Of a DNA stretch of 25,489 nucleotides, positions 3,084 to 12,939 are shown one piece after another; the first letter of the stretch is position 1, and every line of letters begins with the position of its first letter. The notes under the pieces were generated by a model. The model was given only the letters and a program-made list of their open reading frames with translations. It had not been told where the DNA came from and searched no databases. The position numbers were made by a program, and so were the translations under genes. Source of the DNA: a virus. The stretch spans positions 1 to 25,489 of the IMG/VR virus record IMGVR_UViG_3300043313_000520, one strand, 5' to 3'.

Positions 3084-3281
3084 GTGGCGCCGGAGGAGGG
3101 TGAGCGGCCGCGGTGGTCGTTCACCTGGCTCCTGCGTGTGCAACGCACCGGCCGGAACCGGCCGCCCGACGGCGGGGATGGTCCGGGCCGGAACTTCTCC
3201 CGCTGGTTCCCGTGGGCGGTGGTGCTCCTGCTCATCGTGCAGGTGACTGTGCTGGTGTGGCTGGGGGTTCTGCCGCGCTAA
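3084..3281 (+). CDS. Small membrane protein, holin-like candidate
   Basis: 65 residues with a GTG start 3 nt after the previous stop. The first 40 residues are basic and hydrophilic (many Arg, RPPDGGDGPGRN); residues 44-63 form one strongly hydrophobic helix (WAVVLLLIVQVTVLVWLGVL). A single-TM protein just behind the lysin is a reasonable holin or lysis-accessory candidate, but the orientation (long soluble N-terminus, TM at the very C-terminus) is not diagnostic. Two other small membrane proteins in the window (18537 and 19327) compete for the holin role. Confidence 0.72.
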   Translation: MAPEEGERPRWSFTWLLRVQRTGRNRPPDGGDGPGRNFSRWFPWAVVLLLIVQVTVLVWLGVLPR

Positions 3282-5175: not shown

Positions 5176-5249
5176 CTAACCCCGATTAGGTAATGTCGGT
5201 CGTAGGCTGTAGCATGTTGAGGTAAGCCCGGTTAGGAATGAGGATTCAA
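5176..5249 (+). promoter_or_regulatory. Promoter with operator and conserved leader (exonuclease gene)
   Basis: Operator CTAACCCCGATTAG (5176-5189) merges with -35 TTAGGT (5186-5191); spacer 18 bp; -10 TAGCAT (5210-5215); leader begins GTAAGC at 5222. Alignment of this leader to the others makes GTG 5250, not ATG 5238, the likely start codon. Confidence 0.72.
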
Positions 5250-6308
5250 GTGCTGACTACGATCACCGCGGCCGCCCCGACGATGGGTCCGGCCTACGAC
5301 AAGACCGATCCGTCGACCCGACAGCCGTGGCTGGACTTCCGCCGCGGCGGGATCACCGCCACCGAGATTCGGGACTGGCGGCAGGGATCGAAACGTCGCG
5401 CCATCATCACCACGAAGGTCACCGGCGAGGACATCGACGACATCGGTCACATCGCCGGGGTCCGCCACGGCAACCTGCGGGAGCCGGTCATCGGCGAGTG
5501 GGTGGAACGGGAGTTCGGGATCACCCCGGTGCAGAACGTGTTCTCCCACGCCGACAACCCGCGCTACATCGCCTCACCCGACGGCGTCACCCTGGACTTC
5601 AGCGGCAACCTGGTCGTCGGCACGCCCGACACTGCCCTGCTCGAAATCAAGACCGACTCCGAGTCGCTGGACCCCGGTCCTGTCGACGCCCACCGGGTGC
5701 TGATCCACGTCGCACCGGGCTCCAAGTTCGACCGGCTCGGCTACTACGCCCAGATTCAGTGGCAGATGTTCGTGATGAACGCGGCCACCACCCTGTTCGT
5801 CTGGGAGCGGCACACCGGCGAGGTCGACCCTGAGACCGGCACGTACACCCCGGTGGGTGTCCCTGAGTACGCGTGGATTCCTCGCGACCAGGCTGTCATC
5901 GACACGCTGGTGGAGATGGCCGACGACGCGCTGGCCCAGATCGACGCGGCGCGGCTGACCGCGTCGGGGGAGTTCCTGCCGGAGGCGTCCGACCTGCCCA
6001 CCGAGCACGCCGTGCTGGTCGCCGACTACCTGGCATCCCTGGACGCGGAGAAGGTCGCCGCGGCCGCCAAGGTCGCCGCGTTCCGTGCCCTCCAGGACTC
6101 CTACCTGGGACAGCCGGACACCTCGATCGACGCCGGGTTCGCGACGGTGACACTGTCGACCACCTCGAAGACGGTCCGGTCGTTCGATGAGGACGCCGCT
6201 CGCGCTGAGGCCCCTGAGGTGCTGGAGGCGTATGCCCACCTGGTGAAGAAGTTCACCACCACCTCGACGACGTCGACGCAGTCGCTGACGATCCGCCGGA
6301 AGAAGTGA
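5250..6308 (+). CDS. YqaJ/lambda-exonuclease-like recombination nuclease
   Basis: 352 residues from GTG 5250; ATG 5238 is an in-frame alternative adding four residues, but the conserved leader places its Shine-Dalgarno (GAGGA) for 5250. Motifs of the YqaJ/RecB-like nuclease fold are visible: RxGGITATEI (33-40), GNLREPVIGEW with Glu78, ASPDGV with Asp111, LLEIKT with Glu132 and Lys134, and YYAQIQWQMFV with Gln168/Gln170. It should resect double-stranded DNA 5'-3' to make 3' overhangs for the ERF annealing protein encoded directly downstream, an Exo/Bet-type two-component recombinase. The C-terminal 100 residues (Ala-rich helices, then a Ser/Thr-rich strand) are an extension of unknown role. 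Confidence 0.88.
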   Translation: MLTTITAAAPTMGPAYDKTDPSTRQPWLDFRRGGITATEIRDWRQGSKRRAIITTKVTGEDIDDIGHIAGVRHGNLREPVIGEWVEREFGITPVQNVFSHADNPRYIASPDGVTLDFSGNLVVGTPDTALLEIKTDSESLDPGPVDAHRVLIHVAPGSKFDRLGYYAQIQWQMFVMNAATTLFVWERHTGEVDPETGTYTPVGVPEYAWIPRDQAVIDTLVEMADDALAQIDAARLTASGEFLPEASDLPTEHAVLVADYLASLDAEKVAAAAKVAAFRALQDSYLGQPDTSIDAGFATVTLSTTSKTVRSFDEDAARAEAPEVLEAYAHLVKKFTTTSTTSTQSLTIRRKK

Positions 6309-6323
6309 TGTCGGTACCCGCTG

Positions 6324-6380
6324 TTAGGGTAACCCATGTTAGCATTGGAACTAGTAAGCCCACCTGAAAGGAATCCCGCC
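6324..6380 (+). promoter_or_regulatory. Promoter with operator and conserved leader (ERF gene)
   Basis: Operator variant GTAACCCATGTTAG (6329-6342); its right arm forms the start of -10 TAGCAT (6340-6345). Leader begins GTAAGCCC at 6354 and ends with GAAAGGAATCCC before GTG 6381. No TTAGGT-like -35 is seen at the usual distance; TTAGGG (6324-6329) is too close. Confidence 0.65.
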
Positions 6381-7163
6381 GTGCCCACGACGACAACCCC
6401 CAAGTCCACCACTCCCGAGCCGACGACGTTCGCCAACCTGGTCGCCGCCCTGGCCGCGTTCCAGGCCGACCTGCCCTCGGTTCGCAAGAATCAGACCGCC
6501 GACGTCCGCGGCCGCGAGGGGAAAGCCTCGTACTCCTACGACTACGCCGACCTCACCGACGTGTCCGAGGCGGTCCTGCCCGCCCTCGCCGCCGTCGGGC
6601 TCGCCTGGCACACCGGCCTCGACACCGTCGACGGCAACGTGGTGATCCGCTGGGAACTCTCCCACGCCGCGTCCGGGGAGGCCCGCATCGGCACCCTGCC
6701 GGTCGGCCGTGCCGGGAACGACTGGCAGTCGATGGGTTCCTCGATCACCTACGCCCGTCGCTACGCCCTGCTCGCGGCCACCGGTGTGGCACCGGGTGGC
6801 GACGACGACGACGCCAAGTCCGCGTCGACCGCCGGGAACCGTCCGGCACCGGTACAGAAGCCGGTGGAGCGTCCCGCGGCGGTGCAGTACCTGCCGGAGG
6901 GGCTGTATGACCTCAGTGGGATCAACTCCAAGGCTGACGCTGAGGCGCTGTTCTACCGGGCTCGCGGCGCGGGTCACCTGAACCTCGCCATCCAGATCGA
7001 CGGCCAGCCCCGTCCGTTCGGCGCCTGGCTCCAGGAGACCGGCCGTGCGTTCGCCGACGCCGAGGCCGCCGACCCGGACGCGGCCGCTGTCGCCGAGCAC
7101 GAGGCCACCCTGACCGGCGCGGGCACCCCGCTCGCACTCCAGGGGGATGACACCCCGTTCTGA
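6381..7163 (+). CDS. ERF-family single-strand annealing protein with SSB-like C-terminal tip
   Basis: 260 residues from GTG 6381, right behind AAAGGAATCCC; the longer frame to 6336 lies in the promoter. ERF signature: YSYDYADLTDVSEAVLPALA (51-70), then GLAWHT, and MGSSITYARRYALLAATGV followed by GGDDDDA (118-144). Residues 145-185 are a Pro/Ala linker and the C-terminal part has an LysM-unlike helical domain of unknown function. The last six residues, GDDTPF, match the acidic tip of SSB proteins and almost equal the SDDTPF end of the SSB encoded at 12460. Works with the exonuclease at 5250 in strand annealing. Family call firm; the tip function is inferred. Confidence 0.9.
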   Translation: MPTTTTPKSTTPEPTTFANLVAALAAFQADLPSVRKNQTADVRGREGKASYSYDYADLTDVSEAVLPALAAVGLAWHTGLDTVDGNVVIRWELSHAASGEARIGTLPVGRAGNDWQSMGSSITYARRYALLAATGVAPGGDDDDAKSASTAGNRPAPVQKPVERPAAVQYLPEGLYDLSGINSKADAEALFYRARGAGHLNLAIQIDGQPRPFGAWLQETGRAFADAEAADPDAAAVAEHEATLTGAGTPLALQGDDTPF

Positions 7164-7541: not shown

Positions 7542-7910
7542 GTGAGTTTCTACCACTGGACCTGTCGCCACTCCGCCGAGTCGATCGACGAGACGCTGAT
7601 CCTGCGTCCACGGCGACAGCCGCTCCTCGCTGATCTGCCGCTGATCTGGTTCACCACTCTGCGGGACGCGAAGCGGGCGCAACTGGGGCTGTCGTCGGTG
7701 ACGTTGGAGTGCGATCGGATGGACCGGCTGTACCAGGTGATCCCCGAGGATGAGCACTTGATCGTGCGGTGGGGCGACCTGAAGCGTCACCCGCAGTTCT
7801 CCGGCTATCTCGCCGGAGCCCGCCGACTGGAGTCGGTGCGCGGGACCTGGCCTGGACTGTGGGCCGTCGCGGTCGACGAGATTCGCGTGGTTGCGATCCC
7901 GGCTAAGTAG
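7542..7910 (+). CDS. Hypothetical protein (FYHWTC-type)
   Basis: 122 residues, GTG start one base after the previous stop. The N-terminus FYHWTCRHSAESI followed by ILRPR and LIWFTTL resembles the opening of small ART-like or phosphotransferase folds (Tyr-His-x-Thr, then helix, then a Trp-Phe-Thr strand), and the C-terminal half has alternating strands (WAVAVDEIRVVAI). The resemblance is too weak for a functional call. Its end overlaps the promoter of the HNH gene. Confidence 0.72.
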   Translation: MSFYHWTCRHSAESIDETLILRPRRQPLLADLPLIWFTTLRDAKRAQLGLSSVTLECDRMDRLYQVIPEDEHLIVRWGDLKRHPQFSGYLAGARRLESVRGTWPGLWAVAVDEIRVVAIPAK

Positions 7911-7926
7911 GGGTAGACCCTATTAC
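7891..7926 (+). promoter_or_regulatory. Leaderless promoter with palindrome (HNH gene)
   Basis: Possible -35 TTGCGA (7891-7896), 17-bp spacer, -10 TAGACC (7914-7919), then only 7 nt to GTG 7927. The imperfect palindrome TAGGGGTAGACCCTA (7908-7922) covers the -10. No Shine-Dalgarno stands at a good distance, consistent with a leaderless mRNA. Confidence 0.55.
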
Positions 7927-8271
7927 GTGGCGCACGAGTTCAACCGCCGGGTTCGGCTGGCGATCCTCACAAGGGACCTGAACCGGTGCGTGCGGTGCGG
8001 CCGCTACATGCCCGAGGGTGCACACCTGCACCACCGGAAACTGCGGTCGCAGACCGGCGGCGGCTGGGTCGAGAACGGCGTGACCCTCTGCCCCGGATGC
8101 CACATCTGGGTGCACGCGAACATCTCGGCGGCCAAAGCCACCGGGCTGATCGTGCCGTCCTGGGCCGACCCGGAAGCGACGCCGGTGATGACCTGGCGCG
8201 GCCCCGGCCTGCTCAACACCTCCGGTGAGTTCGTCATGCACAGCCCGCCCTACGTCCCGGCGGAATGGTGA
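7927..8271 (+). CDS. HNH endonuclease
   Basis: 114 residues from GTG 7927 (an in-frame TTG at 7891 is less likely because it lies inside the upstream gene). Domain in order: CVRC zinc knuckle (Cys21, Cys24), the catalytic HH of GAHLHHRKLR (35-36), Asn50 in the ENGVTLC strand, CPGCH (Cys55, Cys58, His59) and His63 in WVHAN. This is a compact HNH fold of the zinc-stabilised type. It lies between recombination genes and the replication gene rather than next to the terminase, so it may be a free-standing nicking/homing enzyme rather than the packaging-associated HNH. Confidence 0.88.
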   Translation: MAHEFNRRVRLAILTRDLNRCVRCGRYMPEGAHLHHRKLRSQTGGGWVENGVTLCPGCHIWVHANISAAKATGLIVPSWADPEATPVMTWRGPGLLNTSGEFVMHSPPYVPAEW

Positions 8272-8369
8272 CTGAGACGCGCTGTGCGCCCCGTGGACGC
8301 GATAGAACCTGCAAGATGCCCACCGATGTAGGGTTAGCCCCTACAGGCCGTGAGAGGCGACACGGCTAA
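8268..8369 (+). CDS. Possible 33-aa ORF downstream of HNH gene
   Basis: GTG at 8268 overlaps the HNH stop as GTGA and opens 33 codons (start MTETRCAPRGRDRTCKMP) to TAA at 8367-8369. Two Cys flank a basic loop, similar to the first half of the zinc-knuckle proteins at 13534 and 16639 but without their GHxGPH end. The palindrome at 8328 lies inside it and the terminator-like hairpin begins at once, so it may be spurious or a remnant. Confidence 0.3.
   Translation: MTETRCAPRGRDRTCKMPTDVGLAPTGRERRHG
8328..8344. promoter_or_regulatory. Palindrome of the GTAGGGG/CCCCTAC family
   Basis: GTAGGGTTAGCCCCTAC has 6-bp outer arms (GTAGGG/CCCTAC) and belongs to the second palindrome family found before several leaderless promoters. 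Its role here is unclear; it lies 33 nt before the minus-strand terminator-like hairpin. Confidence 0.45.
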
Positions 8370-8471
8370 AGAAAAGCCCGGCCCCTAACCAGGATTGCCT
8401 GGAGGGGCCGGGTACACTTCGAGTTACCACGCTCGCGTAGGCACCAGTCTACGCGAACCAAACGTAGATTA
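8365..8471 (-). ncRNA. Candidate minus-strand small RNA ending in a terminator hairpin
   Basis: Read on the minus strand, a -10-like TAATCT (8471-8466) is followed by a perfect 8-bp hairpin (arms 8456-8449 and 8440-8433, CTACGCGA on the plus strand pairing with TCGCGTAG), then a strong composite hairpin (10-bp stem CCCGGCCCCT/AGGGGCCGGG at 8377-8412 with an inner CCAGG/CCTGG stem) and the T-rich CTTTTCTTTAG. This has the shape of a roughly 90-nt RNA with an intrinsic terminator. No minus-strand gene is nearby to need it. It could instead only be a barrier to plus-strand transcription. Confidence 0.4.
8377..8412 (-). terminator. Intrinsic terminator, minus-strand orientation
   Basis: 10-bp GC-rich stem plus inner 5-bp stem; only the minus strand has the following T-tract (plus-strand AAAGAAAA at 8368-8375). 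On the plus strand the hairpin is followed by TACACTTCG, with no T-run. Confidence 0.65.
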
Positions 8472-8481
8472 GGACCCATTC
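8459..8481 (+). promoter_or_regulatory. Operator/promoter before the replication gene
   Basis: CAAACGTAGATTAG (8459-8472) is a one-mismatch variant of the CTAAC-N4-ATTAG operator. Its right arm starts a -10-like TAGGAC (8470-8475), 6 nt before GTG 8482, the geometry of the leaderless promoters elsewhere in the window. Confidence 0.45.
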
Positions 8482-8523
8482 GTGAACAGTTTCTTTGGCG
8501 TGTCTGAAAATCGGCGATCCTGA
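8482..8523 (+). CDS. Possible 13-codon upstream ORF coupled to the replication gene
   Basis: GTG 8482 opens a 13-codon frame (MNSFFGVSENRRS) whose TGA (8521-8523) overlaps the ATG of the next gene as TGATG. The downstream gene has no visible Shine-Dalgarno, so termination-reinitiation from this short ORF would explain its translation. No similarity can be expected at this length; the evidence is architecture only. Confidence 0.4.
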   Translation: MNSFFGVSENRRS

Positions 8524-9197
8524 TGGGCGCACGTCTGATCATGGTCGCCGTCGACCTGGCCGCAGACAAGAAGATCGGGCACGCGGCCGCCCGCCTATTG
8601 AACCGCATGGCCATCAGCGCGTTGGATGACGCCGACCGCCCGTGGTCGCAGTTGACCATGGATGAACTCATCCACGCGATGGGCGCCGAACCTGGCGAGG
8701 CGGGCAAGCGCGTCGTGATGCGTGCCCGGCGCGAACTGGTGGCCGCCAAACTCATCAAGGCCGATGGGGGTGGTCACCGCACCAGCGCCGCCCGGTACGA
8801 TCTGCTGTTCTCCGCCGACAGCACCGTCCTAACCCCAGTTACGGTGGGTGAGAAAGGGGGACGAAATCGGTCGGAAAGGGGGACGAAATCGGTCGGAAAG
8901 GGGGACGAAAAGCGTACGCCCCGCCTTATAGAGGATTCTGAGGATCAGGAGGAGGGCACCTGCCCGAATCATCCAACCGGCTGGCACCATGATGAACCGT
9001 GCCGTCGGTGCGCGAAGAATCGACAAGACGCCGAGAACCGTCCGACCCAGTCTCAGATGCAGACCGTCCAGCCCAACAGCCCCTGCGTCTACGGCCCTCA
9101 GCACCGCCTCGTCGCCGACGGCACCTGCATCGGCTGTGACACCCGCGACTTCTTCAGACCCGACTCGATCACCGCACTCCAGGAAGCCCGATTCTGA
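8523..9197 (+). CDS. Winged-helix replication-initiator-like protein with zinc clusters
   Basis: 224 residues. Residues 1-100 look like a helix-turn-helix/winged-helix domain of the phage replication protein type (AARLLNRMAISALDD, LTMDELIHAMGAEPGEAGKR, VMRARRELVAAKLI, then a basic wing before YDLLF). Residues about 105-135 are a Lys/Arg/Gly linker encoded by 22-bp iterons. The C-terminal half has two Cys/His clusters (CPNH..CRRC from residue 147, CVYG..CIGC from residue 188). Lambda O shows the same plan: an N-terminal DNA-binding domain and origin iterons in the middle of its own gene. Position between recombination genes and the DnaT/coiled-coil-like gene at 9197 fits replication. It could instead be a transcription regulator. 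Confidence 0.72.
   Translation: MGARLIMVAVDLAADKKIGHAAARLLNRMAISALDDADRPWSQLTMDELIHAMGAEPGEAGKRVVMRARRELVAAKLIKADGGGHRTSAARYDLLFSADSTVLTPVTVGEKGGRNRSERGTKSVGKGDEKRTPRLIEDSEDQEEGTCPNHPTGWHHDEPCRRCAKNRQDAENRPTQSQMQTVQPNSPCVYGPQHRLVADGTCIGCDTRDFFRPDSITALQEARF
8829..8842. promoter_or_regulatory. Intragenic operator copy next to the iterons
   Basis: CTAACCCCAGTTAC matches the operator palindrome with a one-base change in the last position. It lies inside the replication-like gene, 10 bp before the first iteron. Confidence 0.5.
8852..8910 (+). repeat. 22-bp iterons, candidate replication origin
   Basis: Two perfect tandem copies of a 22-bp unit (8852-8873, 8874-8895; begins GAAAGGGGGACGAAAT) and a third partial copy identical over its first 15 bases (8896-8910). 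Because 22 is not a multiple of three, the copies are translated in different frames, so the repetition is conserved as DNA, not protein. Downstream, CCTTATAGAGGATTCTGAGGAT (8924-8945, quoted here only by its AT-richer character) could be the unwinding region. Confidence 0.7.
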
Positions 9198-9878: not shown

Positions 9879-10151
9879 GTGGACCAGAACCCGTTGTCGT
9901 GGATGAACTCGCCGGTGATGCCTGCCGAGTGGGCGCAGGATCAGCGGCTGTCGTACGGCGCCCGCGGCGTGCTGGCCGAACTGGTCGACACCGCGCCGGG
10001 TGGCGAGATGTCGCTGGAACGCCTCGCCGCGATGCCGGGCGCCGAGTCCGCCGACGTCGTCGAGGGCTACCTGGTGGAACTGGAGAAGGTCGGCTACCTG
10101 GTCCGCGACGACCAGTGCTGGTACCTGTACGACCCGCACCGATTCCAGTAG
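9879..10151 (+). CDS. Winged-helix DNA-binding-like protein
   Basis: 90 residues, GTG start behind a leaderless-type promoter. The pattern RLSYGARGVLAELVDTAPGG, MSLERLAAMPGAESADVVEG, YLVELEKVGYLVRDD matches a helix-turn-helix with a wing as found in phage replisome-organiser-like and MarR-like small proteins. Short length leaves room only for the DNA-binding domain. It may regulate or assist replication; it is one of several candidate DNA-binders for the window's operators. Confidence 0.75.
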   Translation: MDQNPLSWMNSPVMPAEWAQDQRLSYGARGVLAELVDTAPGGEMSLERLAAMPGAESADVVEGYLVELEKVGYLVRDDQCWYLYDPHRFQ

Positions 10152-10952: not shown

Positions 10953-11963
10953 GTGTCTCACGGCATTACAGAAACAGACAAGATGTTCTCCGTCCGTCGC
11001 CCTACGTGGCATGGACTGGGGGAAATCCTCGACGACTACCCGACTCGCGCCGCGGCGCAGAAGTTGGTGCACGACTGGGAGCCGATCCCGGAGCCGATCT
11101 ATCGCGCCACCCCTGTCGTCACCGCCGAGGGCGACCTGAAGACCGAGTACGAGGTCATCCCCGGCAAACTGGAGTACCGCCGCTCCGACAACGGTGCCCA
11201 CCTGGCCGTGAACAACGAGTCGCTGGCGATTGTCACCAACACCGAGGTCTGGGATGCCGCCGAGGCGCTTCAGGGTGGCCCCGCGTCCGACGTGCTCTAC
11301 GAGACCGCCGGTTCGCTGAAGGGTGGCGGCCTGGTCTGGATCATGCTCCGCCTCGCCGAGCCGCTGAAGATCAAGGGCGACCTGTCGCTGAGCCTGCCGT
11401 ACTACCTGCTCCAGAACGGCCACGACGGCATGACCGCGTTCAAGGGCTCCGCCACCTCGGTGCGAGTGCAGTGCGCCAACACCGTCCGGTTCGCCGACCT
11501 GGACGCGAAGGCCCGCGGCACCGAGTTCACGTTCCGTCACACGGTCAACGTCAGCGACCGTGTCGAGGAGGCCCGCAACGCCCTCGCCGGATGGCGTGAG
11601 TCGATCGAGGCGTACCAGATGCTCGCCGAGCACATGATCACCGAGAAGGTCACCAAGCGCGGTGAGGTCGCGTTCCTGGAGCGCTTCATCCCGGCCCCGC
11701 TGTCGACCATGACGTCCGACCGGGTCAAGCACAACATCGAGGTCGCCCGCGGCGAGTTCATGGGCGTGTACAACTCCCAGACGAACGAGGGCATCACCGG
11801 CACCGCCTGGGGTCTGATGCAGGCCGCGTCCGAGTGGAGCGAGCACATCCGCCGCGCCAAGGGCAACCAGATGGAGTCGAAGTTCAAGCGTGCCCTGCTC
11901 ACCCCGAACACGGTGATGACGCACGCGAAGACGTTCGCTCTGGAAGCCGCCCGCGTCGGCTGA
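10953..11963 (+). CDS. DUF932 / phage-plasmid-like protein
   Basis: 336 residues from GTG 10953. The order of motifs is that of the DUF932 family (phage/plasmid-like protein TIGR03299): RRPTWHGLGEI near the N-terminus, RRSDNGAHLAVNNESLAIVT, FETAGSLKGGG-type segment (LYETAGSLKGGGLVWIMLRL), then the domain core KGSATSVRVQCANTVRFADL and FTFRHTVNVSDRVEEARNAL. These proteins are common in phages and plasmids near recombination and replication genes; their biochemical role is not established. The gene has its own strong promoter module and terminator, so it is probably an abundant monocistronic product. Confidence 0.88.
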   Translation: MSHGITETDKMFSVRRPTWHGLGEILDDYPTRAAAQKLVHDWEPIPEPIYRATPVVTAEGDLKTEYEVIPGKLEYRRSDNGAHLAVNNESLAIVTNTEVWDAAEALQGGPASDVLYETAGSLKGGGLVWIMLRLAEPLKIKGDLSLSLPYYLLQNGHDGMTAFKGSATSVRVQCANTVRFADLDAKARGTEFTFRHTVNVSDRVEEARNALAGWRESIEAYQMLAEHMITEKVTKRGEVAFLERFIPAPLSTMTSDRVKHNIEVARGEFMGVYNSQTNEGITGTAWGLMQAASEWSEHIRRAKGNQMESKFKRALLTPNTVMTHAKTFALEAARVG

Positions 11964-11970
11964 CGGACTG

Positions 11971-12005
11971 CGGGCCGGAGGTCCCTCGACCTCCGGCCCG
12001 TTTCC
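11971..12005 (+). terminator. Rho-independent terminator after DUF932 gene
   Basis: Perfect 13-bp stem (CGGGCCGGAGGTC at 11971-11983, GACCTCCGGCCCG at 11988-12000) with a CCTC loop, followed by TTTCCCT. Confidence 0.85.
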
Positions 12006-12052
12006 CTGCCGCTCCCCAGTAACACCTATTCATAGCAGGAAGCGAATACCAG

Positions 12053-12460
12053 ATGGCAACCCCGATCGCCGACGAACCCCGCCCCCTCCGGCCGGTCACG
12101 AACGTGGACACGATCCTCGCCGATATGACCCGGCGCGGCGCCCGCGGAACCACCACCGAGGAGGCGTCCTACCGTCTCAGCGTGCAGGTCAATTCGTACA
12201 CCGGACGTCGTGCCGAACTGCACCGCCGCGGTGTGGTGGAACGTCTCGCCGAGAAGCGCGACGGCCAGCACGTCTACGTGATGCCGGAGTTCGTCGACGG
12301 CCGCCCGATCGCCCCGTTCGTGCCGCACCGGACCGCCGCGCCGATCTGGCTCCATGACGCCGTGGATCACCTGGATGAGTGGCTGACCTACGCCGACGTC
12401 GACGCCGACGTGAAGCGTTCCATTAGTAGCCTGATTGAGTACGCCAAGGAGGACCTGTAA
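12053..12460 (+). CDS. Winged-helix DNA-binding protein
   Basis: 135 residues, AGGAAG 10 nt before the ATG. Residues 18-85 read as a winged helix: [37 protein letters not shown] (recognition region), [15 protein letters not shown], then a wing strand HVYVMPE. The C-terminal 50 residues are helical and acidic ([16 protein letters not shown]), perhaps a dimerisation part. Stop overlaps the SSB start (TAATG). It may regulate the SSB operon or act in replication; no closer family is recognised. No copy of the operator or leader stands right before it, unlike most control genes here. Confidence 0.75.
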
Positions 12461-12939
12461 TGGCTGGTGAAACCATCATCACTGTCGTCGGCAACCTGAC
12501 CGCCGATCCCGAACTGCGGTACACCCAGAACGGCCTGCCCGTCGCCGGGTTCACGATCGCGTCGACACCCCGCAACTTCGACCGGCAGTCGAACGAGTGG
12601 AAGGACGGCGAGTCGCTGTTCATGCGGTGCTCCGCGTGGCGTGACCTCGCCGAGCACGTCGCTGGATCGCTGACCAAAGGCTCCCGTGTGATCGCCACCG
12701 GCCGCCTGCGGCAACGCTCCTACGAGACCCGTGAGGGGGAGAAGCGCACCGCCATCGAACTGGAGGTCGACGAGGTCGGCCCCAGCCTGCGGTACGCCAC
12801 CGCCACCGTCACCCGTGCCGCCAGCAACCCGCCCGCCGCCGCGGCCGCGCAAGCCGACTCATGGTCCGCCACCGGATCGGCTAACGGGCAGGATGCCTGG
12901 GCACCGGCTGGCGCGTATTCCGACGACACGCCGTTCTAG
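12460..12939 (+). CDS. ssb: Single-stranded DNA-binding protein
   Basis: 159 residues with the OB-fold order of bacterial/phage [85 protein letters not shown] (read as consecutive elements), and [19 protein letters not shown]. The Gly/Ala/Pro linker (about 110-150) ends in SDDTPF, the acidic tip through which SSB recruits partner proteins. The same tip occurs on the ERF protein. Coats single-stranded DNA during replication and recombination. Start ATG overlaps the stop of the winged-helix gene. Confidence 0.95.

Follow-up and report, generated by a model that had tools for sequence, protein, structure and literature searches.

Do short direct repeats lying inside an open reading frame of a viral genome mark an origin of replication, and does that frame encode the initiator? 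We addressed this question for a locus in the IMG/VR record IMGVR_UViG_3300043313_000520, whose 25,489 bases were analysed as a whole and are referred to below as the window. The record probably derives from a virus of soil actinobacteria, and is probably a fragment of a larger genome. An earlier note on this DNA had proposed that 22-bp direct repeats within an initiator-like gene constitute a candidate phage origin. Based on the findings discussed below, we consider it quite probable that the ORF at 8523-9197 encodes the replication initiator of the phage, and that positions 8852-8910 represent the iteron part of an origin embedded in that gene.

Results

The linker-encoding part of ORF 8523-9197 contains a 15-bp core (GAAAGGGGGACGAAA) that is present three times at exactly 22-bp spacing between positions 8852 and 8910. 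When applied to the window, TRF returned this same interval with a period of 22, 2.7 copies and a 100% match. Iteron 1 (GAAAGGGGGACGAAATCGGTCG; 8852-8873, + strand) and iteron 2 (8874-8895, + strand) are identical in sequence, and iteron 3 (8896-8910, + strand) is partial, consisting of the first 15 of the 22 bases. The periodicity score of the array was 37. Scores did not exceed 10 across 60 dinucleotide shuffles, nor 13 across 400 synonymous-codon resamplings of the gene, and none of 140 further 350-base stretches taken from the window reached 37. TRF, shuffles and resampling thus confirm the two exact and one partial 22-bp repeats that had been reported. The array is not forced by protein coding. 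The 15-bp core was absent from the remainder of the window, even allowing 3 mismatches, and the exact 22-mer was absent from IMG/VR.

The three copies occupy codon phases 2, 0 and 1, or one copy per phase, and as a result the encoded peptides differ, as the earlier note had observed. Its further argument, that selection must for this reason act on the DNA, does not follow from the identical window copies alone, because recent slippage would give the same result; it instead needs the diverged copies of phages Megan and Margaery discussed below.

Directly after the array lies an AT-richer stretch (8907-8946) that, judging from its position in relatives, is a weak candidate for an unwinding element. 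The AT enrichment claimed for this DNA is real but modest, reaching at most 47% in the best 40 bp compared to 33% for the whole window, and relatives carry more AT-rich DNA near their arrays. Around the window array, a search for DnaA boxes allowing up to 1 mismatch returned none. GC skew, which had been suggested as a check of the origin, displayed no minimum at the array (8.9 kb) in the window. Since the record is only a 25-kb fragment, another origin may lie outside of it.

A copy of an operator was said to lie 10 bp upstream of the array. The element in question, CTAACCCC (8829-8836, + strand), instead lies 15 bp upstream of iteron 1 and belongs to a separate, dispersed motif: CTAACMCC occurs 14 times in the window (positions 3278, 5176, 8829, 9843, 10175, 13176, 14719, 14778, 15048, 17102, 19282, 20871, 23503 and 24834), compared to 0.74 occurrences expected and a maximum of 3 in 100 shuffles. 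These sites are mostly positioned 17-108 bp before + strand ORF starts and are often extended as CTAACCCCnnTTA(G/C)G. The motif resembles an operator, stoperator or promoter-linked element scattered through the phage DNA, and the copy at 8829-8836 is probably a separate regulatory element outside the array.

The ORF (+ strand), which we classed as initiator-like based on its homology to Megan gp53 and its slot after an HNH gene, encodes 224 aa arranged as an N-terminal winged-helix-type domain, the repeat-bearing linker and a C-terminal Cys/His domain. The N-terminal domain (aa 1-100; 8523-8822, + strand) is the predicted DNA reader, and its profile finds ~50 relatives. We infer a winged helix-turn-helix from the sequence pattern together with one profile comparison, in which hhalign matched this domain to the HTH_36 domains of proteins encoded in the same slot of other phages (E 9e-5, probability 59%, 39 columns). 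The C-terminal domain (8961-9137, + strand), as delimited by alignment with Megan gp53, contains two clusters of metal-ligand-type residues (C147, H150, C160, C163 and C188, H194, C202, C205), all 8 of which are conserved in gp53; a similar CxxH..PCxxC pattern is present in the tail of one further family member (L149). This domain is predicted to bind zinc, and may serve as the contact to the replisome. The protein had no match in Pfam (E up to 1), including the RepA_N domain (PF06970), or in NCBIfam, and its best matches in PHROG were sub-threshold (E 0.018 and 0.035), with no O-like family among them. A sequence search of the PDB using the family profile returned nothing convincing. A single-sequence AlphaFold model of the protein was unreliable (pLDDT 44) and was left out of the analysis.

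The + strand genes of the window encode a collagen-like tail protein, the recombination proteins RecE and ERF, an HNH endonuclease, DUF932 and SSB; a terminase-like ORF is also present, judging from its sequence. The RecE-like exonuclease and ERF annealing genes (5238-7163, + strand) belong to the same early module as the initiator-like ORF. The HNH gene (7891-8271, + strand) is the slot marker and lies directly upstream, separated by a non-coding gap (8272-8522) that presumably holds the promoter of ORF 8523-9197; no sigma-70-like site was found within this gap. Megan and the sister phages likewise have a gap of ~170-220 bp in front of their slot genes. Downstream, the DUF932 and SSB genes (10953-12939, + strand) are syntenic with Microbacterium phages. 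The collagen-like ORF (79-1506) is of the Gly-X-Y tail-fibre type and bears 9- and 81-bp repeats. A 90-aa stand-alone winged-helix-like gene (9879-10151), located ~680 bp downstream of the initiator gene, resembles the N-terminal domain of Kozie-type initiators (phrog_37920, E 3e-7), and is possibly a remnant of, or a regulator derived from, this other type of initiator.

The sole phage homologue of the window protein was gp53 of Microbacterium phage Megan (NC_073368.1; E 6e-20, 34% identity over 96%), which is annotated only as a hypothetical protein. It shares the MGA start and the domain order, and its gene is embedded in a syntenic region comprised of RecE, ERF, small genes, HNH, the gap, the slot gene, further genes, DUF932 and SSB. 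Within its linker, gp53 carries AAAGGTACACGCT(C/G)A four times, spaced by 35, 22 and 23 bp and alternating between two codon phases. The repeat sequence (AAAGGTACACGCTCA) differs between Megan and the window, while the spaced arrangement within the linker is common to both. The Megan copies retain the core AAAGGTACACGCT despite variation in the intervening sequence and in spacing; since they have diverged outside of the core, they make selection on this DNA more plausible than do the identical window copies alone. Megan has no strong AT-rich tract, the richest 40 bases past the domain reaching 45% AT, and no DnaA box downstream of the domain. Its GC-skew minimum is broad (~35-46 kb) and surrounds gp53 at 40.1 kb, which is weakly compatible with an origin at this position. 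Searches of phages at the DNA level, of viral contigs using the single protein and a two-row alignment, and of genome contigs failed to identify relatives; close relatives of the window phage were absent from the collections searched.

A gene of similar size, mostly annotated as helix-turn-helix, is located behind HNH in the Mementomorivirus phages Kozie, MementoMori, Margaery, Cinna, Matzah, Terij and MO526, and in Nicole72. All four slot-mates tested matched PHROG replication initiation families, the Margaery protein with E 5e-16 to phrog_270 and 2.5e-10 to an O-like family. This position therefore looks like the initiator slot of the group, filled by different proteins. Margaery gp51, whose winged helix differs from that of the window, carries a 22-bp linker array, CCCCGCCAGGAG(A/C)GGGCG, that occupies all three codon phases. 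Several other slot genes carry 15-bp linker arrays; as these comprise whole codons they are less telling, since a peptide repeat is possible. Like the window gene, those of Margaery (gp51), Kozie (gp52) and MementoMori (gp54) combine the slot, a winged-helix initiator as classified by PHROG, and linker repeats; in contrast to it, they encode an HTH_36-type N-terminal domain and a different C-terminal domain. The C-terminal domain of Margaery is common to Kozie and MementoMori, and its N-terminal domain and array differ from theirs, as if N-terminal domain and origin had been exchanged as a cassette, by analogy to pPR9 (PMC5703833).

We gathered a wider family using a protein profile of the N-terminal domain, and the arrays thus played no part in its selection. 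Starting from a profile built on the window protein and Megan gp53, we detected relatives in genomes belonging to one bacterial order; enlarged N-domain profiles recovered them from 12 of 57 genomes in one genus, from 25 of 400 (~6%) in the family to which that genus belongs, and from single genomes when the orders around two other actinobacteria were searched. The family comprises 51 loci, including the window and Megan, of which 35 are non-redundant and 34 were testable for arrays. Within 300 bases spanning and following the end of the domain, the best repeat period was 20-26 bp in 28 of the 34 members, compared to 122 of 713 (17%) control stretches drawn from the same loci (Fisher P 1.6e-15); the median array score was 16.5 compared to 7.5 for the controls (Mann-Whitney P 1.5e-17). 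Members without a clear 20-26 bp array include L136, L167 and L172. Where a C-terminal part is present the arrays lie inside the gene, while in many members without one they are found near the stop codon or beyond it. Variation across the family extends to the linker peptides and even to the C-terminal domains, and array sequences differ widely. The expectation that relatives would keep the repeats while the linker changes was accordingly borne out for repeat length (20-26 bp in 28 of 34; spacings of 35, 22 and 23 bp in Megan), but not for repeat sequence, the relatives being distant. The recognition sequence of initiators is expected to change rapidly. Similarity in iteron sequence tracked similarity in the domain no more tightly than did control DNA (Mantel 122/2000), and for this reason we do not claim the shared GGGGGAC-type cores as proof of shared specificity.

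Of the 35 members, 10 carry a perfect DnaA box (TTATCCACA) no more than 350 bp downstream of the domain, in one orientation throughout, compared to an expectation of 0.0026 per member and one other copy across the 135 kb of these loci. In the box-bearing members the richest 40 bases past the domain reached 53-70% AT. None of the 8 members with long C-terminal parts possessed the box, compared to 10 of the 27 without, a difference that is suggestive only (Fisher P 0.07).

Each of three elements inspected encodes a tyrosine integrase; one of them has an SSB gene, one a phage capsid gene and one a phage tail gene, indicating that the inspected elements are integrated and mobile, of ICE-like or prophage-/satellite-like character. 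The loci L134-L148 and their relatives are integrated elements that share a highly regular layout consisting of an AlpA-like gene, the winged-helix gene, an AGGGG-type array (22-24 bp), a TAACAGTA AT-rich stretch, CGCGCG, a perfect DnaA box and an SSB gene; this is likely an uncharacterised replicon of actinobacterial mobile elements. The integrated elements L187 and L188 combine an integrase, the winged-helix initiator and isolated phage structural genes, a capsid gene in the case of L187 and a tail gene in that of L188, and are possibly phage satellites. A scan with a degenerate C-terminal motif returned 87 loci, none of which were confirmed as relatives by profile, and tblastn of the N-terminal domain of one relative against plasmids and phages returned none.

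Discussion

Taken together, the Megan array, the slot-mates including Margaery, the repeat period of the family and the DnaA boxes make a phage origin within an initiator gene the most likely reading of this locus. The candidate origin put forward by the earlier note is hence supported by the arrays of relatives, the PHROG matches of the slot-mates and the DnaA boxes. Weak points of this reading are the modest AT-rich stretch and the absence of a DnaA box in the window, a GC skew that is uninformative, the lack of a Pfam or NCBIfam match for the protein, and an array of three copies only, one of them partial.

In the predicted scheme, the N-terminal winged helix would bind each 22-bp iteron, and the copies would fall on nearly the same helix face. 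The resulting nucleoprotein complex would strain the adjacent AT-richer DNA (~8907-8946) open, and the C-terminal Cys/His domain, probably binding zinc, would recruit the host replicative helicase or its loader, such that replication would start at the array (8852-8910). We propose recruitment of a host helicase because the window ORFs that were tested yielded no helicase, primase or polymerase and none is annotated in Megan, whose annotated genome likewise lists no replication initiator.

The anatomy of this locus has precedents. In lambda, the iterons and an AT-rich tract of ori lie in the middle of gene O (PMC7466680). The window resembles lambda in that the gene of a predicted DNA-binding initiator carries iterons at its centre, with modestly AT-richer DNA beside them, but differs in lacking a detectable relation to O-like PHROGs, in its Cys/His C-terminal domain, in its much weaker AT-rich tract, and in that no P-like gene was identified. 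In pSK41 rep, the Rep boxes are central and bound by the N-terminal domain, the linker being encoded by ori, and in the pPR9 chimera the N-terminal domain plus origin were exchanged as a block (PMC5703833). The window shares with pSK41 Rep the predicted winged-helix N-terminal domain, the central repeats, a linker that the candidate origin encodes and a separate C-terminal domain, and the slot-mates suggest that pPR9-type exchange may occur here too. In contrast to RepA_N initiators, the window protein has no RepA_N Pfam match, has a different C-terminal domain, and belongs to actinobacterial phages and integrated elements. By analogy of anatomy, the window initiator most likely works like lambda O and pSK41 rep; we nevertheless file it under neither lambda O nor RepA_N, because sequence homology to either was looked for and not found. 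For mycobacteriophage RepA, origins have been suspected, without demonstration, in or just upstream of repA (PMC7157519).

A winged-helix protein with direct repeats could be a repressor together with its sites, in which case the protein would be a transcriptional autoregulator and the repeats intragenic operators controlling early transcription, with replication not involved. Putative regulatory motifs of the CTAACCCC type are indeed common in the window genome. However, the arrays of the family are found inside the gene or immediately behind it, downstream of the part encoding the DNA-binding domain and not at the promoter; in 10 members they are followed by a perfect DnaA box, with AT-rich DNA near; and the slot-mates match replication initiators. 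We therefore regard pure autoregulation as improbable, although the initiator may in addition regulate its own gene.

We attach still less weight to neutral tandem duplication, whereby polymerase slippage in a permissive, disordered linker produced the repeats. The identical window copies are what recent slippage would leave, and linkers tolerate frame-varied peptides, but this explanation, which we rate very unlikely, must contend with arrays in Megan and Margaery that occupy this position yet differ in sequence, with the core AAAGGTACACGCT maintained in Megan despite differing intervening sequence and spacing, and with a 20-26 bp period in 28 of 34 family members compared to 17% of controls. 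Little credence is likewise due to the repeats being a partition (centromere-like), packaging or recombination site instead of an origin. Although direct-repeat arrays are also known at parS-like sites, and some mycobacteriophages bear an extra parS locus of five direct repeats just downstream of repA (PMC7157519), none of the ORFs examined next to the array was recognised as a ParA/ParB-type gene, and the arrays are associated instead with a winged-helix domain, AT-rich DNA and DnaA boxes.

The embedded-origin reading of the window has a wider, tentative and rather doubtful extension: the loci gathered here might constitute an unnamed initiator family of actinobacterial phages, ICE-like and prophage-/satellite-like elements, built from a winged-helix-plus-iterons cassette with interchangeable helpers, in which short members would lean on host DnaA via the box, and window-type members would have replaced DnaA by a helicase-recruiting C-terminal zinc domain. 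The findings provide a concrete candidate origin for phages such as Megan, tied to integrated elements in ~6% (25/400) of the genomes sampled from one bacterial family. A short, self-contained block of initiator plus origin would be a candidate replicon for actinobacterial vectors, and the period of the array offers a simple route to initiators that are unnamed in domain databases.
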